From the NCBI GenBank assembly GCA_017451385.1, contig JAFSPS010000021.1, forward strand, positions 1 to 62,284: a stretch of 62,284 nt of DNA, written 5' to 3'. This document shows positions 11,549-53,360 of this stretch, in pieces (the first letter of the stretch is position 1; each line of letters starts with the position of its first letter). Position numbers and translations under genes: made by a program. The notes below the pieces were generated by a model. That model did no database searches. It saw nothing but the letters and a program-made list of their open reading frames with translations, and was not told the origin of the DNA. The DNA comes from Bacteroidales bacterium. Its GTDB lineage: Bacteria > Bacteroidota > Bacteroidia > Bacteroidales > P3.

Positions 11549-13690
11549 ATGAAAAAGATAACATTGTTTTTTGCTGTCATCATGCTGATGCCACTGATGC
11601 TGAGGGCTGACGAGGGGATGTGGATTCCCATGCTCCTGCACCGAAACGAAGCCGCCATGCAGCGTGCTGGCATGCACATCTCGGCAAGCGACATTTATGA
11701 TGTCAACCACGCCTGCTTAAAGGATGCCGTAGTTCTCTTTGGCGGCGGATGCACGGGCGAATTTGTCTCGTCACAAGGACTGCTTCTCACCAACCACCAC
11801 TGCGGCTATGGACAGATAGTTAAACATAGCACTGTGGACCATGACTATCTGACTAACGGTTTCTGGGCATCCAGTTGCAACGAGGAGCTGCCGTGCCCAG
11901 GACTGACGGTGGTGCGCCTTGTGCGCATGGAGGATGTGACCTTGGCTGTGCTGAAAGGTATTGACGATAATGTCAGCGAGGCAGACCGTGAGACCGCCAT
12001 TGCGCGTCGTATTGACAGCTTGTGCAACAAAGCCGTAGCAGGTACGCATTACAAGGCTATTATCAAGCCTTTCTACTATGGTAACCAGTATTTTATGTAT
12101 ATCAACGAGGAGTTTCGTGATGTGCGTCTCGTAGGTGCTCCCCCCAGCAATATAGGCAAGTTCGGTGGCGACACCGACAACTGGATGTGGCCACGCCACA
12201 CTGGCGACTTCTCCATGTTCCGCGTATATGTATCGCCTCAAGGCCTGCCAGCAGAGTACAGCAAAGACAATGTGGCGTACAAGCCTCTTAAACACCTTGA
12301 GATTTCCCTTAAAGGGGTGGACGAGGGCGATTTTACTTTCGTGTTTGGCTATCCGGGTACCACGCAACGCTATGTGACACACAATCAGGTGTCGCTTGCT
12401 GCCAATGTGGAAAATCCTATCCGCATAGCCTTGCGCGATATTCGCTTAAAGCATTACAATCAGGCCATGAATCAGTCGGCGGCACAGCGTCTCAAGTATG
12501 CCAACACTGTGGCAGGCATTGCCAACGGATGGAAAAAATGGCAGGGCGAGACCCTCGGCATCAACCGTCTCGCTGCGGTGGCTCAAAAGCAGGAACAGGA
12601 AGCAACTTTCCAGCGTTGGGCTGTTGAACATCGTCAGCAAGGGGGGGCAGACTACACCAATGTGCTGGCTGACATGGAGAAAGCCTATGACATTTTCCGC
12701 CCCATTGATGTCCAGTGGACCTATTTCAACGAGGCGGTACTTGCGAGCGACTTCATGTATCGTGCCTATCTAATGTACCTCCTCGCTCAGCGCCATAGTG
12801 CCGATAAGGAATCCGCCAATGCTGAGGCGCAGAAGCTTCTTGCCCGCAACGAGACATTCTTCAAAGATTTCGAACAGCACAGCCCCATAGATAAGGCTAT
12901 CTTTGTTGAGACAATGACCTACCTTTACCACTCTGGATTCGCCCCTTACCTTAAATATAAAGGAGAGGAGGACCTGATGGATGACCTGAACCGCATCTAT
13001 GAAAAGTCAATTCTCAACAATCAGAGCAAGATGAACAAATTGCTTAGAGGTTACTCTCCCTCCGATGCTCGCAAAGTGATGAAAGACCCTGCAGTACAAT
13101 TCTTTGCCAATGCCTTTGACTATGCTTATTCCACCGAAATGCGTACAGCCCACAACACAGCCAGTAACGACATAAAGCGTTTGATGCGTCTTTATGTGCG
13201 TGGTATGATGGAGCAATACCCCGACAGCAATTTCTTCCCCGACGCCAACCTTACATTGCGTGTGGCCTACGGTCATGTGCAGGGATTCCGTCCTCGTGAT
13301 GCAGTTTACTATACGCACTACAGTACTCTTGACGGCATCATGGAGAAGGAAAATCCTGACATATACGACTATGTTGTGGAGCCTCGCTTAAAGGAACTAT
13401 ATCGCACTAAGGAGTACGGACGCTATGCCAACAAGCAAGGAGAGCTGCCAGTCGGCTTTATTGCAACCAACCACACTACGGGAGGCAATAGTGGCAGCCC
13501 CGTACTCAACGCCGATGGACAACTTGTGGGCATCAATTTCGACCGTTGTTGGGAAGGCACAATGAGCGACTTGCTCTTCGACCCCAATTATTGCCGCAAT
13601 ATCAGTCTCGACATTCGTTATTGCCTTTTCTTGATAGAAAAATTTGCAGGTGCTAAACATCTGGTTGATGAGATGACCATCGTACAATAG
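11549..13690 (+). CDS. dpp11: S46 family dipeptidyl-peptidase, DPP11-type (Asp/Glu-specific predicted)
   Basis: 713 residues from ATG 11549 (MKKITLFF), giving a clean signal peptide ending near MLRADEG. S46 exopeptidases act in the periplasm of Bacteroidota, releasing dipeptides from oligopeptides. The catalytic His lies in LLTNHHCGYGQI, and the catalytic Ser in TTGGNSGSPV. The residue 18 positions after that Ser is Arg (INFDRCWEG). In the known pair, DPP7 has Gly here and DPP11 has Arg, which selects acidic P1 residues. Acidic P1 specificity is therefore an inference from one diagnostic position. A G7 run lies inside the gene near 12641. Confidence 0.88.
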   Translation: MKKITLFFAVIMLMPLMLRADEGMWIPMLLHRNEAAMQRAGMHISASDIYDVNHACLKDAVVLFGGGCTGEFVSSQGLLLTNHHCGYGQIVKHSTVDHDYLTNGFWASSCNEELPCPGLTVVRLVRMEDVTLAVLKGIDDNVSEADRETAIARRIDSLCNKAVAGTHYKAIIKPFYYGNQYFMYINEEFRDVRLVGAPPSNIGKFGGDTDNWMWPRHTGDFSMFRVYVSPQGLPAEYSKDNVAYKPLKHLEISLKGVDEGDFTFVFGYPGTTQRYVTHNQVSLAANVENPIRIALRDIRLKHYNQAMNQSAAQRLKYANTVAGIANGWKKWQGETLGINRLAAVAQKQEQEATFQRWAVEHRQQGGADYTNVLADMEKAYDIFRPIDVQWTYFNEAVLASDFMYRAYLMYLLAQRHSADKESANAEAQKLLARNETFFKDFEQHSPIDKAIFVETMTYLYHSGFAPYLKYKGEEDLMDDLNRIYEKSILNNQSKMNKLLRGYSPSDARKVMKDPAVQFFANAFDYAYSTEMRTAHNTASNDIKRLMRLYVRGMMEQYPDSNFFPDANLTLRVAYGHVQGFRPRDAVYYTHYSTLDGIMEKENPDIYDYVVEPRLKELYRTKEYGRYANKQGELPVGFIATNHTTGGNSGSPVLNADGQLVGINFDRCWEGTMSDLLFDPNYCRNISLDIRYCLFLIEKFAGAKHLVDEMTIVQ

Positions 13691-41470: not shown

Positions 41471-41503
41471 TTTTTTGCTACTTCGTTTTTTTTGCTACCT
41501 TTG
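41471..41503 (+). promoter_or_regulatory. Bacteroides-type promoter of the island leader RNA
   Basis: TTTTTTG (41471-41477) and TACCTTTG (41496-41503) with 18 nt between them. Transcription would begin near 41510, ~16 nt before the leader ORF. One of the best promoter matches in the window. Confidence 0.6.
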
Positions 41504-41525
41504 TATTCTCAAATCACCAGCAATC

Positions 41526-41567
41526 ATGAATACGGTTAAGATGATAAGACATATTAGGGGGGGGTAA
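41526..41567 (+). CDS. 13-codon leader peptide ORF ending in a G8 tract
   Basis: ATG to TAA encodes MNTVKMIRHIRGG; the last codons (AGG GGG GGG TAA) are a run of eight G. It sits right after a good promoter and 35 bp before a strong terminator-like hairpin, the classic layout of an attenuation leader or of a stand-alone small transcript. A run of one extra G would open the frame through the hairpin for ~40 more codons. Translation is not proven. Confidence 0.4.
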   Translation: MNTVKMIRHIRGG

Positions 41568-41601
41568 AGTATTATAATTTAGCGAGTTACGAAAATTTCA
41601 C

Positions 41602-41646
41602 AAAACTCATATTAGGACTATCGGATAGTCTTAATATGAGTTTTTT
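41602..41646 (+). terminator. Strong terminator hairpin in the island leader, possible attenuator
   Basis: The arms 41602-41620 and 41626-41644 pair over 19 bp with a single G-T pair, loop TCGGA, and end in six T (41641-41646). The 5' arm contains CATATTAGG (41608-41616), and the same nine bases occur at 41550-41558 inside the leader ORF, so the 3' arm could pair with either copy. Confidence 0.88.
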
Positions 41647-41833
41647 CTATGTTCATATAATTCACGGAATTGGATAGACGTGTATTGGGTCGTAGGTTAA
41701 AGTTCCAAAAGCGACAGGTTATAGATACTAATGGATATGCGTCAAAAACATAATCGTCACCACAAATGGGATGTAAGTGAAGAGATTGAGAATAAAATAG
41801 ATAAATAGGCTGGATGCAAATGGGTCAAAATGG

Positions 41834-41866
41834 ATTTTTCTATGTGTAAGCATATAGATACATTTG
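41834..41866 (+). promoter_or_regulatory. Second candidate promoter upstream of the first island gene
   Basis: ATTTTTC (41834-41840) and TACATTTG (41859-41866), 18 nt apart. Predicted start near 41873, giving a ~120-nt leader to ATG 41992. The -33 match is weak. Confidence 0.4.
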
Positions 41867-41940
41867 CAGTATGAGAAAAAAGACATGGTCTTTTAGATAA
41901 AACGATAGAACTATTACAACTTGAAACCATAAGGGAGAAA

Positions 41941-41966
41941 GCCGAAAATCCTTGAAAAGAGTAGGC
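41941..41966 (+). promoter_or_regulatory. Conserved leader element, copy 1
   Basis: A 26-nt segment of the form GCC-(G/A)AAAATCC-...-AGAGTA-GGC, 25 nt before the start of the first paralogue. A second copy lies at 46109-46133, 22 nt before the fifth paralogue. The outer GCC/GGC could close a small stem. Confidence 0.45.
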
Positions 41967-41991
41967 GAAAATAATAAAAAACCAAACAATT

Positions 41992-42297
41992 ATGGCAAAA
42001 GAATTGAAAGTTAGCGGCCGTATGACGGTCAAGACCTTGAAGAGCCAGTTCAAGGAGAATTATGGTAGCACGCTCCGCGTCTATAACGGCATCAAGTTTG
42101 CCGACGAGGGCGCAACGCTTGCATCTATCCGCACCGGCGACGCCAAGGGTGGCGAACTCACGGTGGGCGGCAACATGAAAGTTGGCAACTTCGAGGACAA
42201 GATGAAGGAAATCTTCGGCATCAAGGTACAGGTCGCCAATGCCGACGACAGTGCCCTTGCCGACAACGGCATCACCCTCGTGGCTGCTGGCAAATAA
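41992..42297 (+). CDS. Small two-domain repeat protein, island paralogue 1
   Basis: 101 residues with two copies of one domain. Copy A (~4-50) begins ELKVSGRMTVKTLKSQFKE; copy B (~54-100) begins ELTVGGNMKVGNFEDKMKE and continues IFGIKVQV. The shared pattern is E-L-x-V-x-G-x-M-x-V-x5-7-F/M-K-E-x-F/Y-G, then a beta segment and a TL motif (ATLASIR; ITLVAAG). I know this pattern from uncharacterised Bacteroidota proteins but no function. No signal peptide or membrane segment. First of five paralogues in this island. Confidence 0.8.
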   Translation: MAKELKVSGRMTVKTLKSQFKENYGSTLRVYNGIKFADEGATLASIRTGDAKGGELTVGGNMKVGNFEDKMKEIFGIKVQVANADDSALADNGITLVAAGK

Positions 42298-42344
42298 AAC
42301 GCTTTTTCTTGTGGAAAAACCACGCAAAGTCAAACCAAAATTCA

Positions 42345-42381
42345 GGGCAGGGCTGGCCTGACCGCCTCCCTGCTCACAAAA
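42345..42381 (+). repeat. 37-nt structured intergenic repeat, copy 1
   Basis: Begins GGGCAGGGCTGGCCTGACC and ends CTGCTCACAAAA. The ends GCAGGG/CCCTGC can pair. A second copy at 43178-43214 differs at one base. G/C-rich, unlike the A/T-rich gaps around it. 81 nt before the start of paralogue 2. Confidence 0.85.
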
Positions 42382-42462
42382 TTAAACGTTTTCGATAAGC
42401 CGAGAGCATATGCCGAGGCAGGGAAACAGATAAATAAAGTTAAACCAATAAAAAAAAACATT

Positions 42463-42858
42463 ATGGCAGAAGGAATCAGTGTTACCGGCAACAAAAAAGT
42501 AGAGACGCTGGTAAAAGAATTCAACGAGAAGTACCCGTTCATCCGTTTAGGCATCTTCCCCATGTCGGCAAAAAAACTCGTAGCCGAAGGCAAGAGCATC
42601 ACGCAGGTGGACTATAGTCAAACAATTGCGTCGGTACGCAGCAAGGTGGCCCCTGGCGATATCACCATTACGGGGCACAAACTGGTGAAGACCCTCGAAC
42701 ACGAGTTTGAGGAGATCTTTGGCCTCTATGCGCAGGTATGCTACACCACTAAGGAAGGCAAACGCTACTACACCAGTGGAGCCAACGACAGCCTCACCCT
42801 TTCCGCCTTCAACAAGAAGTGCGAAGCCGAGGGCTGCAAGAAAGACGTGTGGAAATAA
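42463..42858 (+). CDS. Small two-domain repeat protein, island paralogue 2
   Basis: 131 residues. Copy A starts ISVTGNKKVETLVKEFNEKYPFIRLGIF and extends to about residue 65; copy B starts ITITGHKLVKTLEHEFEEIFGLYAQV. This member shows the fullest form of the domain: a G-N/H-K-x-V-x-T-L strand-helix, an F-x-x-x-F-P/G turn and an aromatic beta strand, ending in a TLSAFNKKCEAEGC helix. That form resembles a family of unnamed ~120-residue Bacteroidota proteins (from memory). Cytoplasmic. Start ATG 42463 follows AAAAACATT, as in several island genes. Confidence 0.82.
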   Translation: MAEGISVTGNKKVETLVKEFNEKYPFIRLGIFPMSAKKLVAEGKSITQVDYSQTIASVRSKVAPGDITITGHKLVKTLEHEFEEIFGLYAQVCYTTKEGKRYYTSGANDSLTLSAFNKKCEAEGCKKDVWK

Positions 42859-42893
42859 TAAATCATAGTTTCTAACAATTAACATTAACAATC

Positions 42894-43157
42894 ATGTCAT
42901 ATTCAAAATTAGTAATCCGATATCATGAATTTTCCAATGAGGCGCAAAAGAAAAAAACAATCTTATTGAACAAAAAAGTAAAAGACTTTGGAGACAAGAA
43001 TGGGTATCATAACCTTGTGGTCGGCAGTCTTTGTTATAATATAAGGATTTTTGGTTATAGTAGTTATGATCTCAAGAATCTACTTATGGAAAAGGATATT
43101 AATAGCGGAAGCTTAGAGTTTATTTCTTCTATTGATTCCTATGAATGGCGAAACTAA
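42894..43157 (+). CDS. Hypothetical island protein, 87 residues
   Basis: I do not recognise it. The sequence (SYSKLVIRYHEFSNEAQKKKTILLNKKV ... YDLKNLLMEKD) is rich in Lys, Tyr and Ser, has no signal peptide or membrane helix, and does not carry the paired domain of its neighbours. It starts 35 bp after paralogue 2 in the same leader style (ATTAACAATCATG), and its stop lies 20 bp before the second 37-nt repeat. Its lower G/C content than paralogue 2 suggests a different origin. Confidence 0.6.
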   Translation: MSYSKLVIRYHEFSNEAQKKKTILLNKKVKDFGDKNGYHNLVVGSLCYNIRIFGYSSYDLKNLLMEKDINSGSLEFISSIDSYEWRN

Positions 43158-43177
43158 TACGCCAAATCATCTATTTG

Positions 43178-43214
43178 GGGCAGGGCTGGCCTGACCGCCT
43201 TCCTGCTCACAAAA
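43178..43214 (+). repeat. 37-nt structured intergenic repeat, copy 2
   Basis: Same as copy 1 at 42345-42381 except one C to T change (CCTTCCTGC for CCTCCCTGC). Located 20 nt before the start of the GIY-YIG gene. I saw no third copy in the window. Confidence 0.85.
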
Positions 43215-43234
43215 ACAACCTAATAATAAACGCT

Positions 43235-44215
43235 ATGAACGATACATTAAACCTGAGTTTTCAACAACTTTTAGAGATACAGCATCCAGACTCAGATGTT
43301 GTAAAATCAAAGAAAGTACTATTTTGCTATCTTCTCCCATTAGAAAAATACATCAAGACGTTGGGGGAAGATTATGTTGCCGTAATGTCGAAAAAGGATC
43401 CGAAATGGTTTTACGAGTATATCTCTTGCTGGAGCATCAGAGAAGGCAGCAACCGCAACATTTCCACTCTCAAAAGTAAAAAATATGAGTATATCATGTT
43501 TTTTGCAAAAGAACAAAAAGCCACTTCTTATGCACGCTTCGTGGGTTGCTACAAAAACGGTGGCGTTGCCGAAGAAGAATGCATTATAGAAGGCGAAAAG
43601 TGTGTGCGTTTCGCTTTCGAGAAGGTTCTTGATTTTGACGATTTAGACGGCCATGTTGTAATCAAATGGCCGGAGTCCGACCGCTCGATACTTGAATATT
43701 GGTGCAAAGGTGGTGATACAAAGAATGGTGCAGTGCAGCACAAATATATCTATCGAATCAATGATTTGGCGATACCCAAAAAAGACTTCACACGATATGA
43801 GGATGTCATCTTATCTTTCTCAGAATTGAAAGAGATAATAGATGCTGGTAAAATTACGGAAACCGAATGGAGAAAAAGACTATCCATCGTGAAGGGCATA
43901 TACTGCATAGTGGACAAAACCGACGGGAAGATGTATGTTGGTGCAGCATATGGCGAAGAAGGCATTTGGGGACGATGGCAGCAGTATGTCGAGACAGATG
44001 GGCATGGCGACAATGTCAAGATGAAAGAAATACTGATGGAAGACGTGCAGAATAACAACGAGATGCTCAAGATTGACGAAGCAAGACGCGACAATCTCCA
44101 ATGGTCTATCCTTGAGATTTTCTCACAATCAAAGTCCAACGAAACAGTCCTATCGCGTGAAAAGTTTTACAAAGATAAGTTCTGCACAATAAAAATCCAA
44201 CTCAACGACAACTAA
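43235..44215 (+). CDS. GIY-YIG nuclease-domain protein with a novel N-terminal region
   Basis: 326 residues from ATG 43235 (the frame extends upstream through the 37-nt repeat, which is not coding-like). Residues ~217-320 form a GIY-YIG domain: GIY at 221-223, YVG at 234-236, a conserved GRW (246-248) supplying the catalytic Arg, and Glu309 in SREKFYKDKF as the metal ligand. Residues 1-210 are unrecognised, acidic and aromatic (FQQLLEIQHPDSDVV; KWFYEYISCWSIREGSNRN). GIY-YIG enzymes cut DNA in repair, homing, restriction and defence. All key residues are present, so catalysis is plausible. The domain call is firm; the role is inferred from the island context. Confidence 0.82.
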   Translation: MNDTLNLSFQQLLEIQHPDSDVVKSKKVLFCYLLPLEKYIKTLGEDYVAVMSKKDPKWFYEYISCWSIREGSNRNISTLKSKKYEYIMFFAKEQKATSYARFVGCYKNGGVAEEECIIEGEKCVRFAFEKVLDFDDLDGHVVIKWPESDRSILEYWCKGGDTKNGAVQHKYIYRINDLAIPKKDFTRYEDVILSFSELKEIIDAGKITETEWRKRLSIVKGIYCIVDKTDGKMYVGAAYGEEGIWGRWQQYVETDGHGDNVKMKEILMEDVQNNNEMLKIDEARRDNLQWSILEIFSQSKSNETVLSREKFYKDKFCTIKIQLNDN

Positions 44216-44262
44216 ACATTTGCTTATATAAATGAAACAATAATAACAAATCATCTATACCC

Positions 44263-44685
44263 ATGGCAAAAGAAATGAATAACGCTGCCGACTCGCAGGA
44301 GAAGACGGCAAAAGCGGTCTATCGTTTCAAGGGGACCGACTACAAGAAAAAGACCGACTTGGTGCAGGCTGTGGTGCGCGACTATATCGACACGCACGAC
44401 ATTATGACCATCGAGGAACTGAAGGCGGTGTTCGACATCCGCGTTAAAAAAGGCGTGCCTATGGTGCTGAGCCTTGACGATGCCATGAAGACAAAGGATT
44501 CGGCAGGGACGGCTGGCGGCAACTTCGCCACAAAGGAGGAGATGCAGATATCCATGAAGAAGAAAGGCTTCCTCGGCATCAAGACGGGCGTGAAGGTGGT
44601 GGTGTGGAACTACTGGCCTGCAGATTTCTTCAGCCGCTTCCTCGACCTCGCCAAACGTATAGGCTATAAGATTGAGGAAGTGTGA
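44263..44685 (+). CDS. Hypothetical protein with a winged-helix-like accessory domain
   Basis: 140 residues. The segment VYRFKGTDYKKKTDLVQAVV, then DYIDTHDIMTIEELKAVF, and the ending GYKIEEV resemble a domain I recall at the C-termini of diverse Bacteroidota accessory proteins (general form: [F/Y]-x-G-x-x-Y-x-K-x2-L-V-x-A-V-V, then T-x-E-E-L-K-x-x-F, then a G-Y-x-I-E end); no function is known to me. No signal peptide or membrane helix. Lies 47 bp after the GIY-YIG gene. Confidence 0.6.
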   Translation: MAKEMNNAADSQEKTAKAVYRFKGTDYKKKTDLVQAVVRDYIDTHDIMTIEELKAVFDIRVKKGVPMVLSLDDAMKTKDSAGTAGGNFATKEEMQISMKKKGFLGIKTGVKVVVWNYWPADFFSRFLDLAKRIGYKIEEV

Positions 44686-44688
44686 ATC

Positions 44689-44775
44689 GAATTTTGAATT
44701 TTGAAAGTTGAATTTTGAAAGTTGAAACCACATGAAAACTTCTTTCGAATTTTGAAAGTTGATTATTGAAAGTCA
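44689..44775. repeat. Short tandem/interspersed GAATTTTGAAAGTTG repeats
   Basis: Three near-perfect GAATTTTGAAAGTTG units and degenerate relatives fill the gap after the 140-residue gene. Related copies lie at 41356-41393 near the left end of the island. Non-coding. Confidence 0.8.
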
Positions 44776-44809
44776 AAAATTATATATCATTACACAAAAT
44801 CAAAACATT

Positions 44810-45124
44810 ATGGTAGTTATTGCATGGCTTATTAACCTTGTCGCCCCTGTGATTTTCATCTTAGGATTCCTTGTCCTCACCCTCGGCAATGAACTGATAG
44901 ACACATGGCTGTGGATAGTGTGCTGCATATCGGCAGTGATAGGGATGATTTGGGGCATAGTATCGTGGAATGTCGGCGTGCCACCCCGCTGGTTTTGGGC
45001 CAAGTCGAGTATGTTCCTCTTCAACAATTTGGTGTGGTCCGCCATCAGTACGGGATTCCTCTTTTTCCTGCTGCCGCTTGCCATCTGGCTCCTTGTCGTT
45101 GGCAGAGAAGGACTGGGGGTATGA
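44810..45124 (+). CDS. Small integral membrane protein, about three membrane helices
   Basis: 104 residues from ATG 44810 (the frame opens 51 bp upstream, but this ATG follows AAAACATT, the local start style). Hydrophobic segments at ~3-26 (VVIAWLINLVAPVIFILGFLVL), ~33-54 (WLWIVCCISAVIGMIWGIV) and ~74-98 (LVWSAISTGFLFFLLPLAIWLLV). No family recognised. As the only small membrane protein among the soluble paralogues it could anchor or sense at the membrane (inference). Confidence 0.65.
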   Translation: MVVIAWLINLVAPVIFILGFLVLTLGNELIDTWLWIVCCISAVIGMIWGIVSWNVGVPPRWFWAKSSMFLFNNLVWSAISTGFLFFLLPLAIWLLVVGREGLGV

Positions 45125-45208
45125 TGAAATAATCTTTTTCTTCAACACAACTTAGGCTGTAAATAAACAATAATCAAATCAATTATAAACAAACAAAAAC
45201 AAACAATC

Positions 45209-45577
45209 ATGGGACTATTAAACAACATTAAAGACCACTTTGTGAACGCTGAGTTCACAGTGGCACCGCAGAAGAAGGTCAAGACCATCTGCAAGGATTT
45301 CAAAGAGGCGTTCGGCTGCACGCTGGCAATATACAAGGGCACGCAACTGGCAGACCCCGACCTGACGCTGGCAGCACTCAACAAGAGGACCACCAAAGAT
45401 GTGAAGACCGGCAGCAACGAAGAGTTGAAAATCAAAGCCTCAATGAAAGTAGGCGATGTGGAGAAGATGTTCGACAAGGCTTATGGCCTTACGGTACAGA
45501 TAAAAGACCCCGCAGGCACGACGTGCGTGGACAACAAACTGACCATCGGACAGGCCGCCCGCGGTGAGGTGAAGTAA
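45209..45577 (+). CDS. Small two-domain repeat protein, island paralogue 3
   Basis: 122 residues. A 12-residue N-terminal helix (MGLLNNIKDHFV) precedes copy A (EFTVAPQKKVKTICKDFKEAFGCTLAIYKG ... LTLAALN) and copy B (ELKIKASMKVGDVEKMFDKAYGLTVQIKDPAG ... LTIGQAARG). The next gene is an almost identical tandem copy. Both copies keep the TL/LTI motif after an acidic stretch (ADPDLTLAAL; DNKLTIGQA). No signal or membrane helix. Soluble; function unknown. Confidence 0.82.
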   Translation: MGLLNNIKDHFVNAEFTVAPQKKVKTICKDFKEAFGCTLAIYKGTQLADPDLTLAALNKRTTKDVKTGSNEELKIKASMKVGDVEKMFDKAYGLTVQIKDPAGTTCVDNKLTIGQAARGEVK

Positions 45578-45640
45578 GTGACCTGTAAATGGTACTTGTA
45601 AAACAAAAATTCAATTACAAACCAATTAAAACAAACGACC

Positions 45641-46006
45641 ATAGGACTATTAAACAACATTAAAGACCACTTTGTGAACTCTGAGTTCACCATAGCACCG
45701 CAGAAAAAAGTCAAGACTATCTGCAAGGATTTCAAAGAGGCGTTCGGCTGCACGCTGGCAATATACAAGGGCACGCAACTGGCAGACCCCGACCTGACGC
45801 TGGCGGCACTCAACAAGAGGACCACCAAAGATGTGAAGACCGGCAGCAACGAAGAGTTGAAAATCAAAGCCTCGATGAAAGTCGGCGATGTGGAAAAGAT
45901 GTTCGACAAGGCTTATGGCCTTACGGTACAGATAAAAGACCCCGCAGGCAAGGCATGCGTGGACAACAAACTGACCATCGGACAAGCCGCCCGCGGAGAA
46001 AAATAA
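45641..46006 (+). CDS. Island paralogue 4: tandem copy of paralogue 3 with ATG changed to ATA
   Basis: Frame-for-frame duplicate of the preceding gene with only a few changes (such as NAEFTVAPQ to NSEFTIAPQ, and a C-terminal GEK for GEVK). The position matching the start codon reads ATA (45641-45643), followed by the same GGACTATTAAACAACATT. Translation would need ATA as start or the GTG at 45674, which would remove the first 11 residues but keep both domains. The rest is open and intact, so it is either a working gene with a weak start or the first step of decay. Confidence 0.65.
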   Translation: MGLLNNIKDHFVNSEFTIAPQKKVKTICKDFKEAFGCTLAIYKGTQLADPDLTLAALNKRTTKDVKTGSNEELKIKASMKVGDVEKMFDKAYGLTVQIKDPAGKACVDNKLTIGQAARGEK

Positions 46007-46108
46007 GAGGGTTGCGAGGGGCTATGATGTCTCAAAAAAAAGCATAACGCATTGAGCATTGGCATAATCAATGCAGAAATCATTGCCCCCCCCAAAAAAA
46101 AGGAGGAT

Positions 46109-46133
46109 GCCAAAAATCCGTAAGAGAGTAGGC
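46109..46133 (+). promoter_or_regulatory. Conserved leader element, copy 2
   Basis: GCC-AAAAATCC-GTAAGAGAGTA-GGC, 25 nt, closely matching 41941-41966 and lying at the same distance from the next start (22 versus 25 nt). Just upstream lies a C8-A8 run (46086-46101) and an AGGAGG. Confidence 0.45.
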
Positions 46134-46155
46134 TCAATAAACAATAAATAAAATT

Positions 46156-46662
46156 ATGGCAGTAACAAAGAAGCCCGCAGCAAAGAAGCCTGCAGCAAAG
46201 AAACCCGCAGCGAAGAAACCTGCAGCACCTGCACCCAAAATAGGTGGCGAGATTACCGTGAATGGTAACAAATTGATGAAGACTTTGCAAAAGGAGTTTT
46301 CAAAGAAATTTCAGTACTTGACTTTATGCTTCATTATTAGTGCCGACCGAGGCAAGTCTGTGAATGTGAAAGGCATTAACACCGACAAACGTCTATCGGA
46401 TGTACGCAAAAAGTTCTCTAATGCAGAAATTTCACTCCACGGTCGCACAAAAGTGAAGAACATTGAGAACTATTTCTGGGATGAACTCGGCATAGCCGTA
46501 CAGATTGGAATTTGCAACTATTCTGGGCATAAACATTATTTCCCTATCGGGTCGTTCAATGGACTGACACTTACCGCCGCCAACGACTGGGCCAAAAGCG
46601 TAGGTTGCAAAAAGGTGGGAGAGCAGGAGATTAATGAAATATGCCGAGGCATGATCTTTTAA
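46156..46662 (+). CDS. Island paralogue 5 with a histone-like Lys/Pro/Ala tail
   Basis: 168 residues. Residues 6-28 are four KKPAA units and a PAPK end, like the basic tails of histone-H1-like and some HU proteins, pointing to nucleic-acid binding (inference). Copy A then starts EITVNGNKLMKTLQKEFSKKFQYLTLCF and copy B AEISLHGRTKVKNIENYFWDELGIAVQIG, giving the same two-domain plan as its neighbours. The C-terminus (ANDWAKSVGCKKVGEQE) resembles that of paralogue 2 (CEAEGCKKD). Preceded by leader element copy 2. Confidence 0.8.
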   Translation: MAVTKKPAAKKPAAKKPAAKKPAAPAPKIGGEITVNGNKLMKTLQKEFSKKFQYLTLCFIISADRGKSVNVKGINTDKRLSDVRKKFSNAEISLHGRTKVKNIENYFWDELGIAVQIGICNYSGHKHYFPIGSFNGLTLTAANDWAKSVGCKKVGEQEINEICRGMIF

Positions 46663-46768
46663 TTAATGTTGAATTAAAATATAACAAATGGTTTTGCGGT
46701 CATTATATCATTGTATAGTAAGAACCGCATTACTAAACAAATTATTATCAACAAAAAACGCAAACATT

Positions 46769-47203
46769 ATGACATTTACCGAACAATATGTGGCTCTTAT
46801 GATGGCCATACTGAATGCCGATGGCAAACAGGAGCCCGAAGAAATAGCGAAGGTGCGCGAGATGGCCGCCGATTTGGGTCTCGACATGGCAGAGGTGGAA
46901 CGCCTTATTACTGCCGAGACAGAAAAACCTCACAAATTAGAGGCAGCAGCACGCTCTGTGCAGAAGAAAGGCGATGCCGAACAACTTATGGAGGCTTGCA
47001 CCCTCGTTGCCTTGAGCGACAAATATCTTGACCATCGCGAAGTGGAGATGCTGCTCGACATTGCAGGCTGGATGAAATTAAAACCAACCAAAGCCGTGCT
47101 CACCATCGCCGCCATTGCGCAGAACGACCGCAGCATACTCATAGAAGGCAATGCCGCCCTGCACGATGAAGACACCATTGAAGAAGAAATAGACGGAGAA
47201 TAA
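46769..47203 (+). CDS. TerB-like tellurite-resistance-family protein
   Basis: 144 residues from ATG 46769 (MTFTEQYVALMMAILNADGK; the frame extends upstream without similarity). All-helical with the acidic metal-binding pattern of the TerB fold: ILNADGKQEPEE near the N-terminus and VALSDKYLDHREVEMLL in the second half. TerB proteins occur in stress and phage-response (ter) loci together with ATP-grasp enzymes and DNA-processing proteins. That association is repeated here, since an ATP-grasp gene lies 292 bp downstream. No other ter genes (terD, terC) are seen in the window. Confidence 0.78.
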   Translation: MTFTEQYVALMMAILNADGKQEPEEIAKVREMAADLGLDMAEVERLITAETEKPHKLEAAARSVQKKGDAEQLMEACTLVALSDKYLDHREVEMLLDIAGWMKLKPTKAVLTIAAIAQNDRSILIEGNAALHDEDTIEEEIDGE

Positions 47204-47223
47204 CCATTAAAACCACAAAGACA

Positions 47224-47469
47224 ATGCAAACATATACATATAGCAATAGCGGCAACCAAGTATTGCCCTTGATGATGAACTTCACTCGTCCTACGCCTAT
47301 AAGCGAATACGACATCGAGCCACTCACCTACAACGACCAGACGCAGGTTTCCTACGAGATGCGCATTGTGGGAACACGCAGTCTTAAACAATCGTCGACT
47401 CATGTCCGTACTGGAGGATACAAGTCTGACAAAAAGAACGAGATAGACGACTCGAAGAGTGTGAGATAA
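47224..47469 (+). CDS. Candidate ATP-grasp-modified RiPP (graspetide) precursor peptide
   Basis: 81 residues, 20 bp after the TerB-like gene and 26 bp before the ATP-grasp ligase. The middle (LPLMMNFTRP; YDIEPLTYNDQTQVSYE) recalls the GRASP-targeted precursor pattern of a P-rich motif followed by Y-D/N-x-x-T-Q-V. The C-terminal third is rich in nucleophiles and then acids: GTRSLKQSSTHVRTGG followed by YKSDKKNEIDDSKSVR, as expected for a core joined by Ser/Thr/Lys to Asp/Glu side-chain links. A GG at residues 64-65 could be a leader cleavage point. Precursor status rests on position plus composition and is not certain. Confidence 0.55.
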   Translation: MQTYTYSNSGNQVLPLMMNFTRPTPISEYDIEPLTYNDQTQVSYEMRIVGTRSLKQSSTHVRTGGYKSDKKNEIDDSKSVR

Positions 47470-47495
47470 TCGTTTAGTGAATTTCACGATTCACA

Positions 47496-48509
47496 ATGAT
47501 ACTGATTTTCAGCAACAAAGAAGACATCCATCCTAACAACGTCATCGGTTATCTGCGGCAGTGGGGCGTAGAGGTGTTCCGTCTCAACACGGAGTGCCTG
47601 CTGACGGACTACCGCTTCTGCTGGTGGTTGGACTCAGATGGTATCGACTTTGAGATAGAAAATGTAAAGAACGGATTGAAACTGACGGGAAGCCAAGTAA
47701 CGGCGGTCTGGGACCGCCGTGCTTCGGCGCCGTCGGAGTTGCCGATGCCAAGCAGCAACGACTCCGTCAACGATTTTATGCGTCGCGAGGGCTATGTATT
47801 CCTCAGTTACCTGCGCCATTGGATGAAGGACATCTACTCGATAGGCGACATCGAGGAGGACTGGCCTGCCGAATCAAAAATGCTGCAACTGACGGTGGCA
47901 CGCGAGTTGGGCATGGCGGTGCCAGACACCTGCTTTGCCAACTATCGCGAACCTATAGTCCGCTTGGCGGAACGCTACGAGACGCTGTCGCTCAAATCGT
48001 TCGATGGCAGCAGCGTCCTCGACGGCGAGAACGACCGCGAATACGTCCTCTACGCACAGCGGGCGAAGAGTGCCGACGTGGTGGCGCAGCCGGAGGAGGC
48101 GTTCTGCCAGACAGCCAATTTCGTGCAGAACTATATAGAAAAGGCATACGAACTGAGGGTAACGGTGGTGTGCGACGATGTGGTGGCATGCAAGATAGAC
48201 TCGCAGGCTATGGCCGACGATGAAGGCAAAACGGACTGGCGGCAAGGCTACGAGCATGGGATGCGGCTCGAAATAGTGGAACTACCTGACAAGATAGCCG
48301 ACTTCTGCCGACGTTATCTGCGGCGCATGAAACTGAATTTCGGCTGTTTCGACTTTATCGTAACACCCAACGGCCGATATGTGTTCCTCGAATGTAACCC
48401 CAACGGTCAATGGCTATGGATAGAACTGCTCACAGGCTACGACTTGTCGAAGATAGTGGCACGACATCTGTGCCGCTATGAGGAGGGGGCGCAAGGAGAC
48501 ATGATGTAA
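47496..48509 (+). CDS. ATP-grasp ribosomal-peptide ligase, MvdD-like (graspetide maturase)
   Basis: 337 residues. ATP-dependent carboxylate-amine/alcohol ligase forming side-chain esters or amides in a peptide. Visible: N-terminal pre-ATP domain (ILIFSNKEDIHPNNVIGYLRQ, DRRASAP), ESKMLQLTVARELGMAVPDT (126-145), the ATP-lysine in LSLKSF (Lys167), QNYIEKAYELRVTVV (211-225) and the metal-binding end FGCFDFIVTPNGRYVFLECNPNGQW (282-306) with Asp286, Glu299 and Asn301. The WLWIELLTG ending is characteristic of the microviridin/graspetide ligase group. Immediately follows the candidate precursor. No methyltransferase or transporter of a typical cluster lies beside it. Confidence 0.85.
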   Translation: MILIFSNKEDIHPNNVIGYLRQWGVEVFRLNTECLLTDYRFCWWLDSDGIDFEIENVKNGLKLTGSQVTAVWDRRASAPSELPMPSSNDSVNDFMRREGYVFLSYLRHWMKDIYSIGDIEEDWPAESKMLQLTVARELGMAVPDTCFANYREPIVRLAERYETLSLKSFDGSSVLDGENDREYVLYAQRAKSADVVAQPEEAFCQTANFVQNYIEKAYELRVTVVCDDVVACKIDSQAMADDEGKTDWRQGYEHGMRLEIVELPDKIADFCRRYLRRMKLNFGCFDFIVTPNGRYVFLECNPNGQWLWIELLTGYDLSKIVARHLCRYEEGAQGDMM

Positions 48510-48610
48510 CAGATTGCTATAGTCTGAGAATCAGTATAGCGAGAATCATATATCTAAGCACATCTTAACAAATCAAAACAAAAAGAATGCCAAATTACGG
48601 ATAAATCATG

Positions 48611-48618
48611 TAATTTTG
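48611..48618 (+). promoter_or_regulatory. Bacteroides-type -7 element upstream of the first channel gene
   Basis: TAATTTTG in the 205-bp gap after the ATP-grasp gene; predicted start ~90 nt before ATG 48715. No clear -33 element. Confidence 0.35.
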
Positions 48619-48714
48619 CTCTCTATTAGTTGAAGACAGAACGCAGCAAATCAAATTTGACTGATTATATTTATAATCAATGTCATACAAATATAGGTTT
48701 GAGCCATCTAAGCA

Positions 48715-50433
48715 ATGACTACACAAGCAAAAGAACCAACAATCAAGCAGGAACTGGCGCGGGTGTTTGACGACAACCTGCACACCAAACAATGGCACAA
48801 CTTGGTGGACTACACCATCATCGGACTTATCGTGCTTTCTACCCTTGAGGTATTCCTATCAACATACGACGGCATCGTGGAACACTACGGCGTATGGCTC
48901 AAGGTGGTGGACTACTTCACCACGGCAGTGTTTACCATCGAGGTGTCGCTGCGCATCTGGTGTGCCGACCAGATAGACGAACGCTACCGCGGTTTCCGCG
49001 GTCGTCTGCGCTACTGCTTCTCGTTCTATGGACTGATAGACATTCTCTCGACCTATCCGTTTTATGTGAGCCTCATTACGCCCCTACCCTACACTGCACT
49101 AAAGACATTGCGAATCCTGCGACTGTTGCGCATATTCCGCTACATCAAGGCTTTCAATATATTATCGCGCGCTGTGAAAAGCAAGCGGCGGGAGTTGGTG
49201 GTGTCGCTTGAGTTCCTTGTCATTGTGACGCTGCTGCTGTCGTTTGTGCTCTACTTTGTCGAACACGAGGTACAACCTGAGGTGTATGACAACGGATGGA
49301 TTTCGGTGGTATGGGCGTTTGCGCAATACATAGGCGACCCGGGCGGTTTTGCCGACACGCCACCCATCACTACCATAGGGCATCTTGTGGCCGTGCTGGT
49401 AGGTCTGCTGGGAATTGCCATCTTTGCCGTACCCGCGGGTCTGATTGGGTCCGGTTTTTCGGAGGTGATGGAGGAAGATGCGGCAGAGGCAGAACTGAAA
49501 GAGACACAGAATAGAATAATAAAGGCATTCCGCTTTGTAAAAGACATGCACCATACGGGGTTGTTCTTCGTGCCGCGCTATCTGTCGATGACGACCATAT
49601 CGACAAAAAAACTTATAACAGAAGAGCAAATCTTCCGTGCCGTAGAGAAGTCGGACTGTCTGCATCTATGCAACACCGCACTGTCAATAAACAAGATAGA
49701 CAATCCGACAGACCAGATTGTGCTGGTAAACTTCTACAAAAACACCGACTACGGATGCTGTATAGACAGAGGGTCGCGCATCACAATAGTAAACACGTCG
49801 GGCGACACAGAACCTATGTCGAGTTGGTTTGCGTTCCATGTGGCGAAGTTGGGCGGATTCAACTATGTGGCTAAAGATATAGCGACTGACCCCGACAAAC
49901 CGGCATCATACTATACCGGTCTCAATAATCCTTGCCCCAACTACCCAGTTTTCATAAATGACATCAACGGCATGGCGCATCGCGGCGATACTTGGGCGAT
50001 AATGATGCTAAGCACCAATGCTCCGCGAAGCCGCCCGACGCAACTGCACTTCTGCTACAATAGCAAGAAGGGCGATGACTCGTATAACGACCCCGACAGC
50101 CGCATAAAAGACTACGACACTTTCGACCGAATGTATAGTTCGATGTCGAAGACGATGGACGACCAGTTTGGACTAAAGTGCGACCGCAACCAGTGGTACG
50201 GCGTATCTAATGAAAACATAGCCCACAAATTGGAGGCTGACAATGTGTTTACTTTACGGGTGGCGGGCTTTATGCTGGTAAATGACGACAGACTGTGCGC
50301 CATAGTGAAGCAGATTGCAGACTGCTTGCGCCAAAGCATTGAGCCAGAACGCAGCGAGCCCTTGATACCAGAAATGAGGAAACGCAATGTAGGCCACGAC
50401 TTTGGAATGGCTGACTATGTAGAGGAATATTGA
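48715..50433 (+). CDS. Voltage-sensor ion channel with a large unknown cytoplasmic domain, copy 1
   Basis: 572 residues. Residues ~30-250 are a six-helix voltage-gated channel module: S1 (DYTIIGLIVLSTLEVFL), S2/S3, and an S4 with basic residues every third position (Arg133, 136, 139, 142, Lys145 in LRILRLLRIFRYIK). The pore follows, with S6 at LVAVLVGLLGIAIFAVPAGLIG. The expected TxGYG filter is not there; the loop reads AQYIGDPGGFADTP (202-215). Residues ~262-572 form a soluble part with no family I recognise (NFYKNTDYGCCIDRG; PNYPVFINDINGMAHRG; THLHFCYN-like QLHFCYN). Ion selectivity therefore cannot be assumed to be K+. Followed by a near-identical copy. Confidence 0.82.
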   Translation: MTTQAKEPTIKQELARVFDDNLHTKQWHNLVDYTIIGLIVLSTLEVFLSTYDGIVEHYGVWLKVVDYFTTAVFTIEVSLRIWCADQIDERYRGFRGRLRYCFSFYGLIDILSTYPFYVSLITPLPYTALKTLRILRLLRIFRYIKAFNILSRAVKSKRRELVVSLEFLVIVTLLLSFVLYFVEHEVQPEVYDNGWISVVWAFAQYIGDPGGFADTPPITTIGHLVAVLVGLLGIAIFAVPAGLIGSGFSEVMEEDAAEAELKETQNRIIKAFRFVKDMHHTGLFFVPRYLSMTTISTKKLITEEQIFRAVEKSDCLHLCNTALSINKIDNPTDQIVLVNFYKNTDYGCCIDRGSRITIVNTSGDTEPMSSWFAFHVAKLGGFNYVAKDIATDPDKPASYYTGLNNPCPNYPVFINDINGMAHRGDTWAIMMLSTNAPRSRPTQLHFCYNSKKGDDSYNDPDSRIKDYDTFDRMYSSMSKTMDDQFGLKCDRNQWYGVSNENIAHKLEADNVFTLRVAGFMLVNDDRLCAIVKQIADCLRQSIEPERSEPLIPEMRKRNVGHDFGMADYVEEY

Positions 50434-50657
50434 CGTGCGAAATATAACGATTGACGAATGGCACATAAGTAAATAGTTTCATTTATTTTTAATCTATTGT
50501 GTTATTCTTCCTCTGCCCTCACCTATCTTAGTTTGGGAGGGAGTGCTACAGTTTTATGCCTATTATTTTAGCACATATTAAATATTTTAACAACATAATA
50601 AACAAAAATGGGTGCATCAGATCTTACAATGATGATGTTTATCCGTGATTCAAACCT

Positions 50658-52367
50658 ATGACTACACAATCAACAATCAAGCAGAAATTGGCGCGGGTGT
50701 TTGACGACGACCTGCACACCAAACAATGGCACAACTTGGTGGACTACACCATCATCGGGCTTATCGTGCTGTCCACCATTGAGGTATTCCTATCAACATA
50801 CGACGGCATCGTGGAACACTACGGCGTATGGCTCAAGGTGGTGGACTACTTTACCACGGCAGTGTTCACTGTTGAGGTGTCGCTGCGCATCTGGTGTGCC
50901 GACCAGATAGACGAACGCTTTCGTGGTTTCCGCGGACGTCTGCGCTACTGCTTCTCGTTCTATGGGCTGATAGACATTCTCTCGACCTATCCGTTCTATG
51001 TGAGCCTCATTACGCCCCTACCCTACACTGCATTAAAGACATTGCGAATCCTGCGACTGCTGCGCGTGTTCCGCTACATCAAGGCTTTCAATATATTGTC
51101 GCGTACAGTGAAAAGCAAGCGGCAGGAGTTAATGGTGTCGCTTGAGTTCCTTGTTATTGTAACGCTGCTGCTGTCGTTTGTGCTATACTTTGTCGAACAC
51201 GAGGCACAGCCTGAGGTGTATGACAACGGATGGATTTCGGTGGTATGGGCGTTTGCTCAATACATAGGCGACCCGGGCGGTTTTGCCGACACGCCGCCCA
51301 TCACTACCATAGGACATCTTGTGGCCGTGCTGGTAGGTCTGCTGGGAATTGCCATCTTTGCCGTGCCCGCGGGTCTGATAGGGTCAGGATTTTCGGAAGT
51401 GATGGAGGAAGATGCGGCAGAGGCAGAACTGAAAGAGACGCAGGATAGAATAATAAAGGCATTCCGCTTTGTAAAAGACCAGCACCATACGGGGCTGTTC
51501 TTCGTGCCGCGCTATCTGTCGATGACGACCATATCGACAAGGAAACTGATAACGGAAGAGCAAATATTCCGTGCCGTAGAGAAGTCGGACTGTCTGCACC
51601 TATACAATACTGCACTGACATTAAACAAGATAGACAAACCGATAGACCAGATTGTGCTGGTAAACTTCTACAAAAACACTGCTTACGGCTGCTGTATAGA
51701 CAGAGGGTCGCGCATTACGATAGTAAGCACGTCGGGCGACACCGAGCCTCTGGCGGGATGGTTTGCGTTCCATGTGGCGAAGTTGGGCGGATTCAACTAT
51801 GTGGCTAAAGATGTGGTATCCGACCCCGACAGACTGGCATCATACTATAATGGTCTCGATAATCCATGTCCCAACTACCCAGTTTTCATAAATGACATCA
51901 ACGGCATGGCGCATCGCGGCAATACTTGGGCGATTATGATTGTTGGCACCGAGGCACCGCGAAGCCGCCCAACGCAACTGCACTTCTGCTACAACACCAA
52001 GAAGGGCGATGACTCGTACAACGACCCCGACAGCCGCATAAAAGACTACGACACCTTCGACCGAATGTATAGTTCGATGTCGCAGGCGATGGACGAGCAG
52101 TTTGGACTAAAGAGCGACCGCAACCAGTGGTATGTCGCCTCGAAAAATAACATAGCCCACAATTTGGAGGCTGACAATGCGTTTACTTTACGGGTGGCGG
52201 GATTTACGCTGGTAAATGACGACAGACTGTGTGCCATAGCCAAGCAGATGGCAGACTGCTTGCGCCAAACCATTGAACCAGAGCGCAGCGAGCCGTTTAT
52301 TCCAGAAATGAAAAAACGTAATATAGGCAACGACTTTGGCATGACTGACTATGTAGAAAATTGTTAA
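50658..52367 (+). CDS. Voltage-sensor ion channel with a large unknown cytoplasmic domain, copy 2
   Basis: 569 residues, nearly identical to the preceding gene along its whole length, with scattered conservative changes (RIFRY to RVFRY, HEVQPE to HEAQPE, MSSWFAF to LAGWFAF) and most differences in the C-terminal domain. It lacks three residues near the start. The unusual filter segment YIGDPGGF is unchanged between the copies, as are the S4 charges, so these features are conserved rather than errors. The 224-bp gap before it is A/T-rich and not a copy of the region before gene 1. Subunits could form homo- or heterotetramers (inference). Confidence 0.82.
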   Translation: MTTQSTIKQKLARVFDDDLHTKQWHNLVDYTIIGLIVLSTIEVFLSTYDGIVEHYGVWLKVVDYFTTAVFTVEVSLRIWCADQIDERFRGFRGRLRYCFSFYGLIDILSTYPFYVSLITPLPYTALKTLRILRLLRVFRYIKAFNILSRTVKSKRQELMVSLEFLVIVTLLLSFVLYFVEHEAQPEVYDNGWISVVWAFAQYIGDPGGFADTPPITTIGHLVAVLVGLLGIAIFAVPAGLIGSGFSEVMEEDAAEAELKETQDRIIKAFRFVKDQHHTGLFFVPRYLSMTTISTRKLITEEQIFRAVEKSDCLHLYNTALTLNKIDKPIDQIVLVNFYKNTAYGCCIDRGSRITIVSTSGDTEPLAGWFAFHVAKLGGFNYVAKDVVSDPDRLASYYNGLDNPCPNYPVFINDINGMAHRGNTWAIMIVGTEAPRSRPTQLHFCYNTKKGDDSYNDPDSRIKDYDTFDRMYSSMSQAMDEQFGLKSDRNQWYVASKNNIAHNLEADNAFTLRVAGFTLVNDDRLCAIAKQMADCLRQTIEPERSEPFIPEMKKRNIGNDFGMTDYVENC

Positions 52368-52392
52368 TGTGTGAATTATAACGACTAATGAT

Positions 52393-53115
52393 ATGAATTT
52401 ATTATCCAAATTATACACAATAAACTGCAAATCGGAACACGAAGAAGAGATGACGGCTTTTATTCTTCTGCAGTTGGAAAAAATTGAACATGAAGGTGGT
52501 TTTTCGCTGGAAATCGAGAGCGACGCAATGGGAAATCTTTTTATCACCAAAGGCGAAAGCGACAGTTATCCGTGCGTAGTAGCTCACACAGATGAGGTTC
52601 ACATACAACGGCGGCGCAACGTATGCCGACGCGATGGGATGATATACACCACTAATGAGGCTGGCGAACAGGTGGGCTGCGGCGCCGACGATAAGAACGG
52701 AATCTGGATTGCCCTACGCATGCTGGAACGTGTGCCGTCGTTGAAGGTGGCTCTGTTTGTGCAAGAAGAGACAGGGTGCCACGGGTCTAAAGGGTGCGAT
52801 ATGTCCTTCTTTGCCGACTGTCGTTATCTACTGCAGTGCGACCGCAAAGGAGCGTCGGACTTGGTGGTATGCGGAAAGGGAGTGCCTCTATGCGATGACG
52901 ATTTCATTCCTGCACATCTCTTGGAGCAATATGGCTATTCGCCTGTGGAAGGGGGACGTACCGACGTGGTGGCACTCAAAGAGAAGGGACTCCGCCAACC
53001 GTGTTGCAACATAAGTTGCGGATATTACAATGCCCATCACGACGACGAGTATACCATAGAGGCAAAGTTGGAGAATGCGCTGGAGTTTGTGTATAGCATA
53101 GTTACCGCTATGTGA
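52393..53115 (+). CDS. Compact M20/M42-like zinc peptidase
   Basis: 240 residues, 25 bp after the second channel gene. Metal-site motifs of the M20/M28/M42 clan in order: VVAHTDEVH (His65, Asp67), GCGADDKNGIW (Asp99), FVQEETGCHGSKG (Glu125, Glu126), LLQCDRKGASD (Asp150) and a C-terminal GYYNAHHDDEY (His215/216). No inserted dimerization domain, so it is smaller than typical carboxypeptidases or PepT. No signal peptide. Could trim the modified peptide or act in general peptide turnover; the island position favours the first but this is inference. Confidence 0.78.
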   Translation: MNLLSKLYTINCKSEHEEEMTAFILLQLEKIEHEGGFSLEIESDAMGNLFITKGESDSYPCVVAHTDEVHIQRRRNVCRRDGMIYTTNEAGEQVGCGADDKNGIWIALRMLERVPSLKVALFVQEETGCHGSKGCDMSFFADCRYLLQCDRKGASDLVVCGKGVPLCDDDFIPAHLLEQYGYSPVEGGRTDVVALKEKGLRQPCCNISCGYYNAHHDDEYTIEAKLENALEFVYSIVTAM

Positions 53116-53126
53116 CATTGAGGACT

Positions 53127-53155
53127 ACGGGCGGACACATAGGTCCGTCCCTACA
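53127..53155. repeat. Palindromic interspersed-type repeat
   Basis: GGGCGGAC pairs with GTCCGTCC around ACATAG, flanked by a CTACAT end. Palindromic G/C-rich elements of this form are scattered in many Bacteroidota genomes; only one copy is in this window. Marks the right edge of the island. Confidence 0.5.
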
Positions 53156-53193
53156 TGTTCGGGTCTATGCACCATTATTTTTTACCACATAAT

Positions 53194-53242
53194 AAAACAG
53201 ACAACGCCATGAGGTTGTGACCAAATGACGTTGTTTGTTTTT
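53194..53242 (+). terminator. Hairpin terminator at the right end of the island
   Basis: AAAACAGACAACG pairs with CGTTGTTTGTTTT across a 22-nt internal loop, and a run of T follows. Lies ~80 bp after the peptidase gene and before the convergent DHS-like gene. Confidence 0.7.
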
Positions 53243-53360
53243 CAGAACGATTTTCTGCTATGTTCAGCATTTAACTGATTTCTCGTCTCGGCATACGAGC
53301 GAGTTTGACTGCTCACGCCTTATCGAGGGCACAGTTATATGCACATTATCTTTTGAATAC

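Follow-up and report, generated by a model that had tools for sequence, protein, structure and literature searches.

Contig JAFSPS010000021.1 of a Bacteroidales bacterium (assembly GCA_017451385.1) carries an uninterrupted run of plus-strand genes, and the question raised by this locus was whether these genes form one system and, if so, of what kind. The whole stretch of 62,284 nucleotides (nt), here called the window, is contig C50 of a 2.57 Mb genome. A preliminary description of this DNA had counted about 14 such genes and regarded them as a single module that makes a modified peptide and couples it to membrane potential and nucleic acids. The single orientation was confirmed, and the run was found to comprise 15 open reading frames (ORFs), g01 to g15, at 41992–53115. 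Based on all comparisons, we propose that the window contains one member of a patchy, modular family of conflict islands in Bacteroidales, which most likely serves anti-phage or anti-competitor defence; the probability of this reading was estimated at about 0.5.

The SD domain and the channel

The small paralogues and the channel genes were located as follows (lengths in amino acids, aa):

41992–42297, plus strand: g01, SD of type A, 101 aa (alignments and tree)
42463–42858, plus strand: g02, SD of type C, 131 aa (alignment and tree)
45209–45577, plus strand: g07, SD of type B, 122 aa (clade of 18 rows, support 100/98)
45674–46006, plus strand: g08, recent duplicate of g07 (94% identical in DNA, 96% in protein)
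46156–46662, plus strand: g09, SD with a Lys/Ala/Pro-rich N-terminal tail, 168 aa (long tree branch, placement unsure)
48715–50433, plus strand: g13, channel protein with an altered filter and a C-terminal domain (PF00520, Ion_trans, 8.7e-22)
50658–52367, plus strand: g14, second channel copy (PF00520, 2.4e-22; 90% identical to g13)

The five small ORFs had been taken for paralogues, and this was confirmed by alignment. They share one domain of ~100 aa, designated SD, for which no Pfam match above the cut-off was obtained. The domain is a duplicated beta-alpha-beta unit. Its predicted model showed a weak resemblance to ubiquitin and ISG15, and ubiquitin-like chains were listed by Foldseek; a ferredoxin-like fold was also weighed from the order of the two beta-alpha-beta units, and the Foldseek listing excludes nothing. 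A 43-residue match of g02 to E1-E2 at 0.001 fell within SD itself. The E1, E2 and JAB enzymes were not found by Pfam among the 15 island proteins, a search confined to these proteins, and in this the island differs from the ubiquitin-like conjugation systems Bil, Bub and CBASS II. SD occurred alone, in tandem, or fused to TerB-like, TPR or BspA-type LRR parts, where the TerB-like parts were recognised visually and through a DUF533 match that stayed below the cut-off. In g08, the codon that corresponds to the ATG of g07 is ATA (45645–45674) and the first ATG, GTG or TTG is an internal GTG, hence g08 may be silenced or may start internally.

Both channel copies noted in the preliminary description were recovered as Ion_trans proteins. 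Residues ~25–270 of g13 resemble KCNQ-type channels, and the best solved match was KCNQ3 (E 2.6e-26). As in the KCNQ and other Kv-type voltage-gated potassium channels, an Ion_trans domain and an Arg-rich S4 segment are present, the latter in all 18 channels compared. However, the selectivity filter of the TVGYG type is replaced by an IGDP motif, which is kept in 17 of the 18 and reads QYIGDPGGFAD in the window, and a large C-terminal domain without any Pfam match follows. In relatives further removed, the channel part still shared 53–72% identity with g13, and the segments after residue 265 were mostly less than 40% identical, with more retained in loci L149 and L150. The channel is therefore probably the fixed part of the protein and its tail a changing part for sensing or gating.

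Recurrence and position of the island

SD was detected in 26 of 148 relatives' genomes with g01 as the query and in 13 of 295 order-wide genomes with a profile, the bacterium's own genome being included in both numbers. Channels of the g13 type were present in 14 of the 148 genomes; they were counted only at E < 1e-100, since weaker matches were common (98/148 genomes). SD was also present in 12 of the 14 genomes with the channel versus 14 of the 134 others (Fisher p 4.9e-9).

The neighbourhoods of 38 SD loci were then compared with those of 75 ATP-grasp loci without SD. The markers enriched near SD were the channel (15 versus 0), the nuclease clusters (14 versus 1), GIY-YIG, KAP or g05-type genes (11 versus 1), and the clusters c2 (22 versus 1), c5 (12 versus 0) and c4 (11 versus 1), where c2 is a protein of 80–90 aa that appears by eye to form a coiled coil. 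Smaller differences were recorded for TerB (14 versus 9), a kinase (14 versus 4) and the putative regulator c3 (15 versus 7). The ATP-grasp ligase was recognised in 6 SD loci versus 47 controls, and five of those six had been found through the ligase scan. This comparison excluded L170 and L171, which had been found through the channel, treated the fragmented contigs of G042, G100, G325 and G362 as one row each, and used only the window genes at 38–57 kb. The home-made ORF caller recognised the ligase in 47 of the 75 controls chosen for it and SD in 36 of the 38 SD loci, thus the missing markers are lower bounds, and the key counts were repeated by tblastn and a six-frame hidden Markov model (HMM) search on 32 SD-found rows, a re-scan confined to these rows. 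SD was found in all 32, SD of the g07 type in 27 and c2 in 24; g06 was found in 7, g05 in 3, g04 and g15 in 1 each, and the ligase in none.

The loci were annotated with models derived from their own clusters, which were built from L149–L180 and the window. Therefore, eight order-wide SD loci fetched later (the earlier-fetched G074, G093, G129 and G143 being left out) provided a fairer test. Among them, the channel was present in 3, c2 in 5, TerB in 4 and a kinase with c3 in 2, while G343 and G208 yielded no markers. The partnership of SD, channel, TerB and nuclease genes recurred at other sites, in several genera and families. In L247, which belongs to another family, the gene order was c3, kinase, c2, SD, UzuA-like GIY-YIG, SD and channel. 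It was concluded that the islands are real units of co-occurrence. As support for an island, the preliminary description had named co-occurrence of its gene set at variable chromosomal sites, and for SD and the channel this was observed. Its single module was thus sustained in part: the channel, C-terminal domain included, and the SD paralogues do recur with TerB and varied nucleases, but fixed membership was not supported for the graspetide cassette or the GIY-YIG gene, a protein of the g04 type being found in just 1 of the 32 SD-found islands.

The island fills the gap between a minus-strand DUF3276-parA-parB operon on the left (DUF3276, PF11680, E 2e-31) and a minus-strand deoxyhypusine synthase gene on the right (PF01916, E 1e-83). 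The boundaries described earlier were present, the right one consisting of two features:

53129–53151: palindromic repeat, single copy in the window
~53195–53245: terminator-like hairpin with a T-run, read by eye

In five genomes of the same genus the order was parB, parA, DUF3276, a gene of 425–429 aa and deoxyhypusine synthase. These intervening genes formed one family (65–91% identical) without a match in the window or in G013, which is the closest relative by DUF3276 and the synthase. In G013 the junction is bare, with ~100 bp between DUF3276 and the synthase. Since the island occupies the place of the 425–429-aa gene or of the bare junction, it was read as probably acquired or replaced at this site. 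Integrase or transposase families were not found by Pfam among the 17 proteins scanned. A tRNA-anchored integration was rejected, as the window has no tRNA. Carriage by phages or plasmids was rejected likewise: g01 was unmatched in 72,556 plasmid and 50,697 phage records, and viral contigs gave 37 and 17 pattern stretches in the searches for SD and the channel, with zero confirmed relatives.

We also considered that there is no functional unit at all and that a hot spot near parAB and dnaB gathers unrelated accessory genes. An SD island of G122 (L164, contig C66) lies on the opposite side of the same DUF3276-parA-parB operon, so the region may be a hot spot of the genus; gene content varies among islands, and two recent duplications and one gene remnant were found inside the island of the window. 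Yet of the 32 other islands, that of G122 alone showed parAB or DUF3276 in the sequence retrieved around it, and islands of other families contain the same partners. Across all annotated loci, controls included, c2 immediately precedes the channel in 7 of 21 cases, and in 17 of 19 cases c3 has a kinase no more than two genes away (11 of them divergent). Domain fusions inside the islands point in the same direction, and a mere collection of unrelated genes was considered improbable.

The graspetide cassette and the leader RNA

Three genes in the middle of the island form a graspetide cassette, for which ester or amide cross-links are predicted:

46769–47203, plus strand: g10, TerB-domain protein, first gene of the cassette (PF05099, 7.5e-11)
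47224–47469, plus strand: g11, graspetide precursor, 81 aa (alignment of 56 precursors)
47496–48509, plus strand: g12, ATP-grasp ligase of the MvdC/MvdD type (RimK, 1.6e-5)

The TerB and ATP-grasp genes of the preliminary description proved to be real. The gaps between the three genes are 20 and 26 nt. The ligase matched TIGR04187 (1.5e-52), TIGR04185 (3.5e-42) and TIGR04184 (1.7e-41), all below the curated cut-offs, and its solved relatives were 5ig9 (1.6e-27) and 7m4s (1.5e-26). The precursor has the leader LPLMMNFTRP and the core GTRSL..T....D.KNEIDD.K. Matching ORFs, whose leader is of the PLLM type and whose core reads GT(R/K)SL...T...D.KNEIDD.K, were found in the window and in 55 of 81 loci, where the row of L024 was cut short and the core of L058 did not fit. 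None of the five precursors tested matched a Pfam or NCBIfam model above the cut-off. A P-h-h leader motif is described for MvdC/MvdD-type graspetide (omega-ester peptide) precursors (PMC8939145). The cassette resembles these clusters in its ligase with an adjacent precursor, the P-h-h leader and the Thr/Ser plus Asp/Glu/Lys core. It differs in the TerB gene in front, the surrounding SD and channel island and the precursor without a model match; TerB and a channel are not mentioned in the main text of PMC8939145.

An alternative view puts the graspetide of g11 and g12 at the centre, the TerB, channel, nuclease and SD proteins then serving to make or export it, to confer immunity to it or to respond to it. 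The cassette does lie near SD or channel genes in seven loci (the window, L019, L020, L041, L044, L050 and L171), a channel island of G101 included, and these seven ligases are spread over the ligase tree. However, an SD gene was near the ligase in only 5 of 80 ATP-grasp loci, and the SD-found islands held none. TerB preceded the precursor in 11 of the 80 loci, nine of which were without SD. In the ligase tree, built by a quick method, a total of 5 gains or losses is required to place the seven island copies, of which at least 4 are imposed by branches with good support, which argues that the cassette is an optional cargo. Hence, precursor and ATP-grasp pairs, with or without TerB, mostly live apart from SD, and a fixed mechanism of peptide plus channel, as the earlier coupling to membrane potential implied, is unsupported.

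A shared leader RNA was the second point in favour of the graspetide-centred explanation. The putative regulatory elements of the island were the following:

41474–41503, plus strand: candidate Bacteroidales-type promoter, TTTG-N18-TACCTTTG (pattern scan; one of two matches in the window on both strands)
41602–41644, plus strand: 20-bp hairpin with a T-run, candidate leader terminator or attenuator
41932–41967, plus strand: DUF805b RNA element RF02914, ending 24 nt before g01 (46.2 bits, gathering 35.6)
46100–46134, plus strand: second DUF805b element, ending 21 nt before g09 (36.5 bits, gathering 35.6)

The promoter consensus of Bacteroidales was taken by us to be TTTG-N~19-TAnnTTTG, and the start given to the island in the preliminary description (41471) coincides with the promoter-like motif at 41474. 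Terminator-like sites overall were not above those of shuffled sequence (13 versus a mean of 12). Rfam detected DUF805b in 2 loci out of 7 (L149 and L155) and in 2 out of 13 (L159 and L247). By pattern, the element ends ~20–26 nt ahead of SD genes in L149, L155, L247 and L253, and likewise ahead of the cassette's TerB gene (L015, L018) or its precursor gene (L038, L058). The genome of the window has four elements, three of them over the cut-off; SD genes follow two of the four, and a gene that is TerB-like by eye follows another. Nevertheless, DUF805b occurs in 138 of 295 genomes, upstream of many gene kinds, and it was rejected as the specific mark of a private regulon; being so widespread, it lends weak support to shared control. 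Taken together with the locus counts, a module centred on the graspetide was judged unlikely.

The same element (RF02914) precedes short peptides resembling, by eye, GG-leader precursors of ribosomally synthesized and post-translationally modified peptides (RiPPs) in L263, L282 and L289, so DUF805b may mark RiPP genes more widely. A 140-aa protein of YKGDSTSYSN repeats follows a DUF805b-type pattern in the channel locus L170 (~13222–13690, minus strand) and in the SD locus L172 (~5536–6005, plus strand).

Partner genes, related systems and mode of action

The remaining features of the island were assigned as follows:

42340–42381, plus strand: 42-nt stretch between g01 and g02 (repeat D5), sharing 93% identity with the 5' part of g04 (43173–43214)
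42894–43157, plus strand: g03, ORF of 87 aa without a family
43145–44215, plus strand: g04, GIY-YIG protein (PF01541, E 3e-4; 21.6 bits, cut-off 22.6)
44263–44685, plus strand: g05, 140 aa, stand-alone domain
44810–45124, plus strand: g06, 104-aa membrane-type protein, cluster c11
52393–53115, plus strand: g15, M20-like protein, 240 aa (PF01546, 1.4e-4, below the Pfam cut-off; PHROG peptidase, 4e-49)

The GIY-YIG gene reported earlier was likewise real, and the 42-nt stretch is, as judged by its similarity, a remnant of another copy of the g04 type. Residues 110–356 of g04 matched the PADLOC model of UzuA from the Uzume system (PDLC03973, E 8.9e-54) over model positions 54–278 of 278. The N-terminal ~110 residues lie outside the model, and the neighbouring SD and channel genes are a further difference from Uzume. 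A homologue of g04 within the SD and channel island of L247 showed 37% identity across 259 aligned columns and retains the GIY...YVG region. In L149, the g05 domain forms the C-terminal part of a GIY-YIG protein, of a TerB-like protein (by eye) and of a KAP NTPase, and weaker matches were found in the KAP proteins of L041, L050, L152 and L155. Relatives of g06 sit directly after the channels in L153, L154 and L157. The small peptidase of the preliminary description was retained as an M20-like protein only; homologues of g15 were seen just in L065 and G362 among the loci checked, and it is probably a bystander. A pyroglutamyl-peptidase-like gene of a family other than g15 (c22, by eye) adjoins the channel in L019, L151, L152, L165 and L251.

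The islands of relatives also hold a DUF2779 protein, SIR2, a DUF4143 ATPase, an OmpA protein and an FGE protein. Ten relatives' proteins, preselected as defence-like, were compared with a defence library. PD-T4-3, PDC-S20/PifA and mREase_II were matched, and four of the ten, the SIR2 protein among them, were unmatched at 0.001.

These partners bear on another explanation, namely a stress-response or surface-signalling island, Ter-like and kinase-regulated with OmpA, LRR and FGE proteins, that is unrelated to phages. It is consistent with the TerB domains, with the relatives' OmpA and FGE proteins and LRR-bearing kinase, and with the M20-like protein of the window. On the other hand, TerC and TerD families were not found by Pfam among the 15 proteins, and a Ter-type stress system was rejected; moreover, relatives carry nuclease-type, KAP NTPase, SIR2 and restriction-like genes, and the distribution is very patchy. 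This explanation was considered somewhat more plausible than the two above, though still rather unlikely.

The defence reading is closest to the conflict systems with effector-associated domains (EADs), in which a locus holds multiple copies of small non-enzymatic domains, either free or joined to effectors that vary, as outlined by Kaur et al. (2020, PMC7159879; 2021, PMC8195603). SD and g05 similarly occur both stand-alone and effector-fused in the same loci, which suggests an adaptor role. In contrast to the EADs as those papers present them, SD is an alpha+beta domain without a Pfam assignment to any named EAD, and a channel is a frequent partner here, when the words "ion channel" appear nowhere in the main text of either paper. 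A MoxR-vWA or GTPase core was not seen in the proteins scanned (15 of the window and 20 relatives), which make up a minority of those in the islands. For the kinase of L150, a match to TCAD9 (ternary complex associated domain) that stayed below the cut-off was recorded at 0.003.

The kinase and c3 pair may be compared with the CapK/CapS immune operons, in which, by the description in PMC13373217, a kinase and a putative DNA-binding partner lie beside variable immune-type genes; DNA binding of c3 is a guess. CapK is described there as anti-sigma-kinase-like, whereas the kinase here matches Pkinase and carries LRR in L150. The pair is absent from the island of the window, and the genome has one elsewhere (C32), without SD. 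CapK/CapS is cited here as a parallel. Kinases were also noticed in two other loci: in G000:C22 (L297), a kinase stands beside an FtsK-like gene of 1000 aa and a number of small genes of WXG100-like appearance (by eye), suggestive of a type VII-like secretion locus, and G000:C17 (L296) has two FHA-PP2C-kinase-like sets (by eye), which looks like a phospho-signalling locus.

We proposed the following mode of action. SD domains, alone or fused, and the g05 domain would act as non-enzymatic adaptors that join sensors to effectors, and the effectors would differ between islands, comprising the channel, GIY-YIG and other nucleases and KAP NTPases. The channel would contribute a part resembling a voltage sensor, a pore whose filter is altered and, for sensing or gating, a rapidly changing C-terminal domain. 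In many islands, a Ser/Thr kinase and c3, often divergent, would control the set. Upon a trigger, collapse or alteration of the membrane potential by the channel, together with cleavage of nucleic acid by the nuclease, would stop the phage or the cell. The TerB, precursor and ATP-grasp cassette of the window would be an inserted graspetide cargo, possibly sharing the leader-RNA control.

A bolder formulation is offered only tentatively: an undescribed class of immune islands, in which tandem, unconjugated mini-ubiquitin-like adaptors assemble variable effectors, a repurposed voltage-gated channel with an altered filter is a common, recurring membrane effector, and repeated pick-up of graspetide cassettes brings RiPP chemistry under the same control. 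The gene combination did not appear in the titles and abstracts listed by searches of open-licence PubMed Central (PMC) papers, where SD bears no published name to search.

If the proposed reading is true, gut and rumen Bacteroidales would hold a modular immune or competition system based on a small domain unknown to Pfam and a channel without the potassium filter. SD and c2 would then serve as handles for finding more effectors, and the graspetide cassettes of some islands would be a testable case of RiPPs in immunity.

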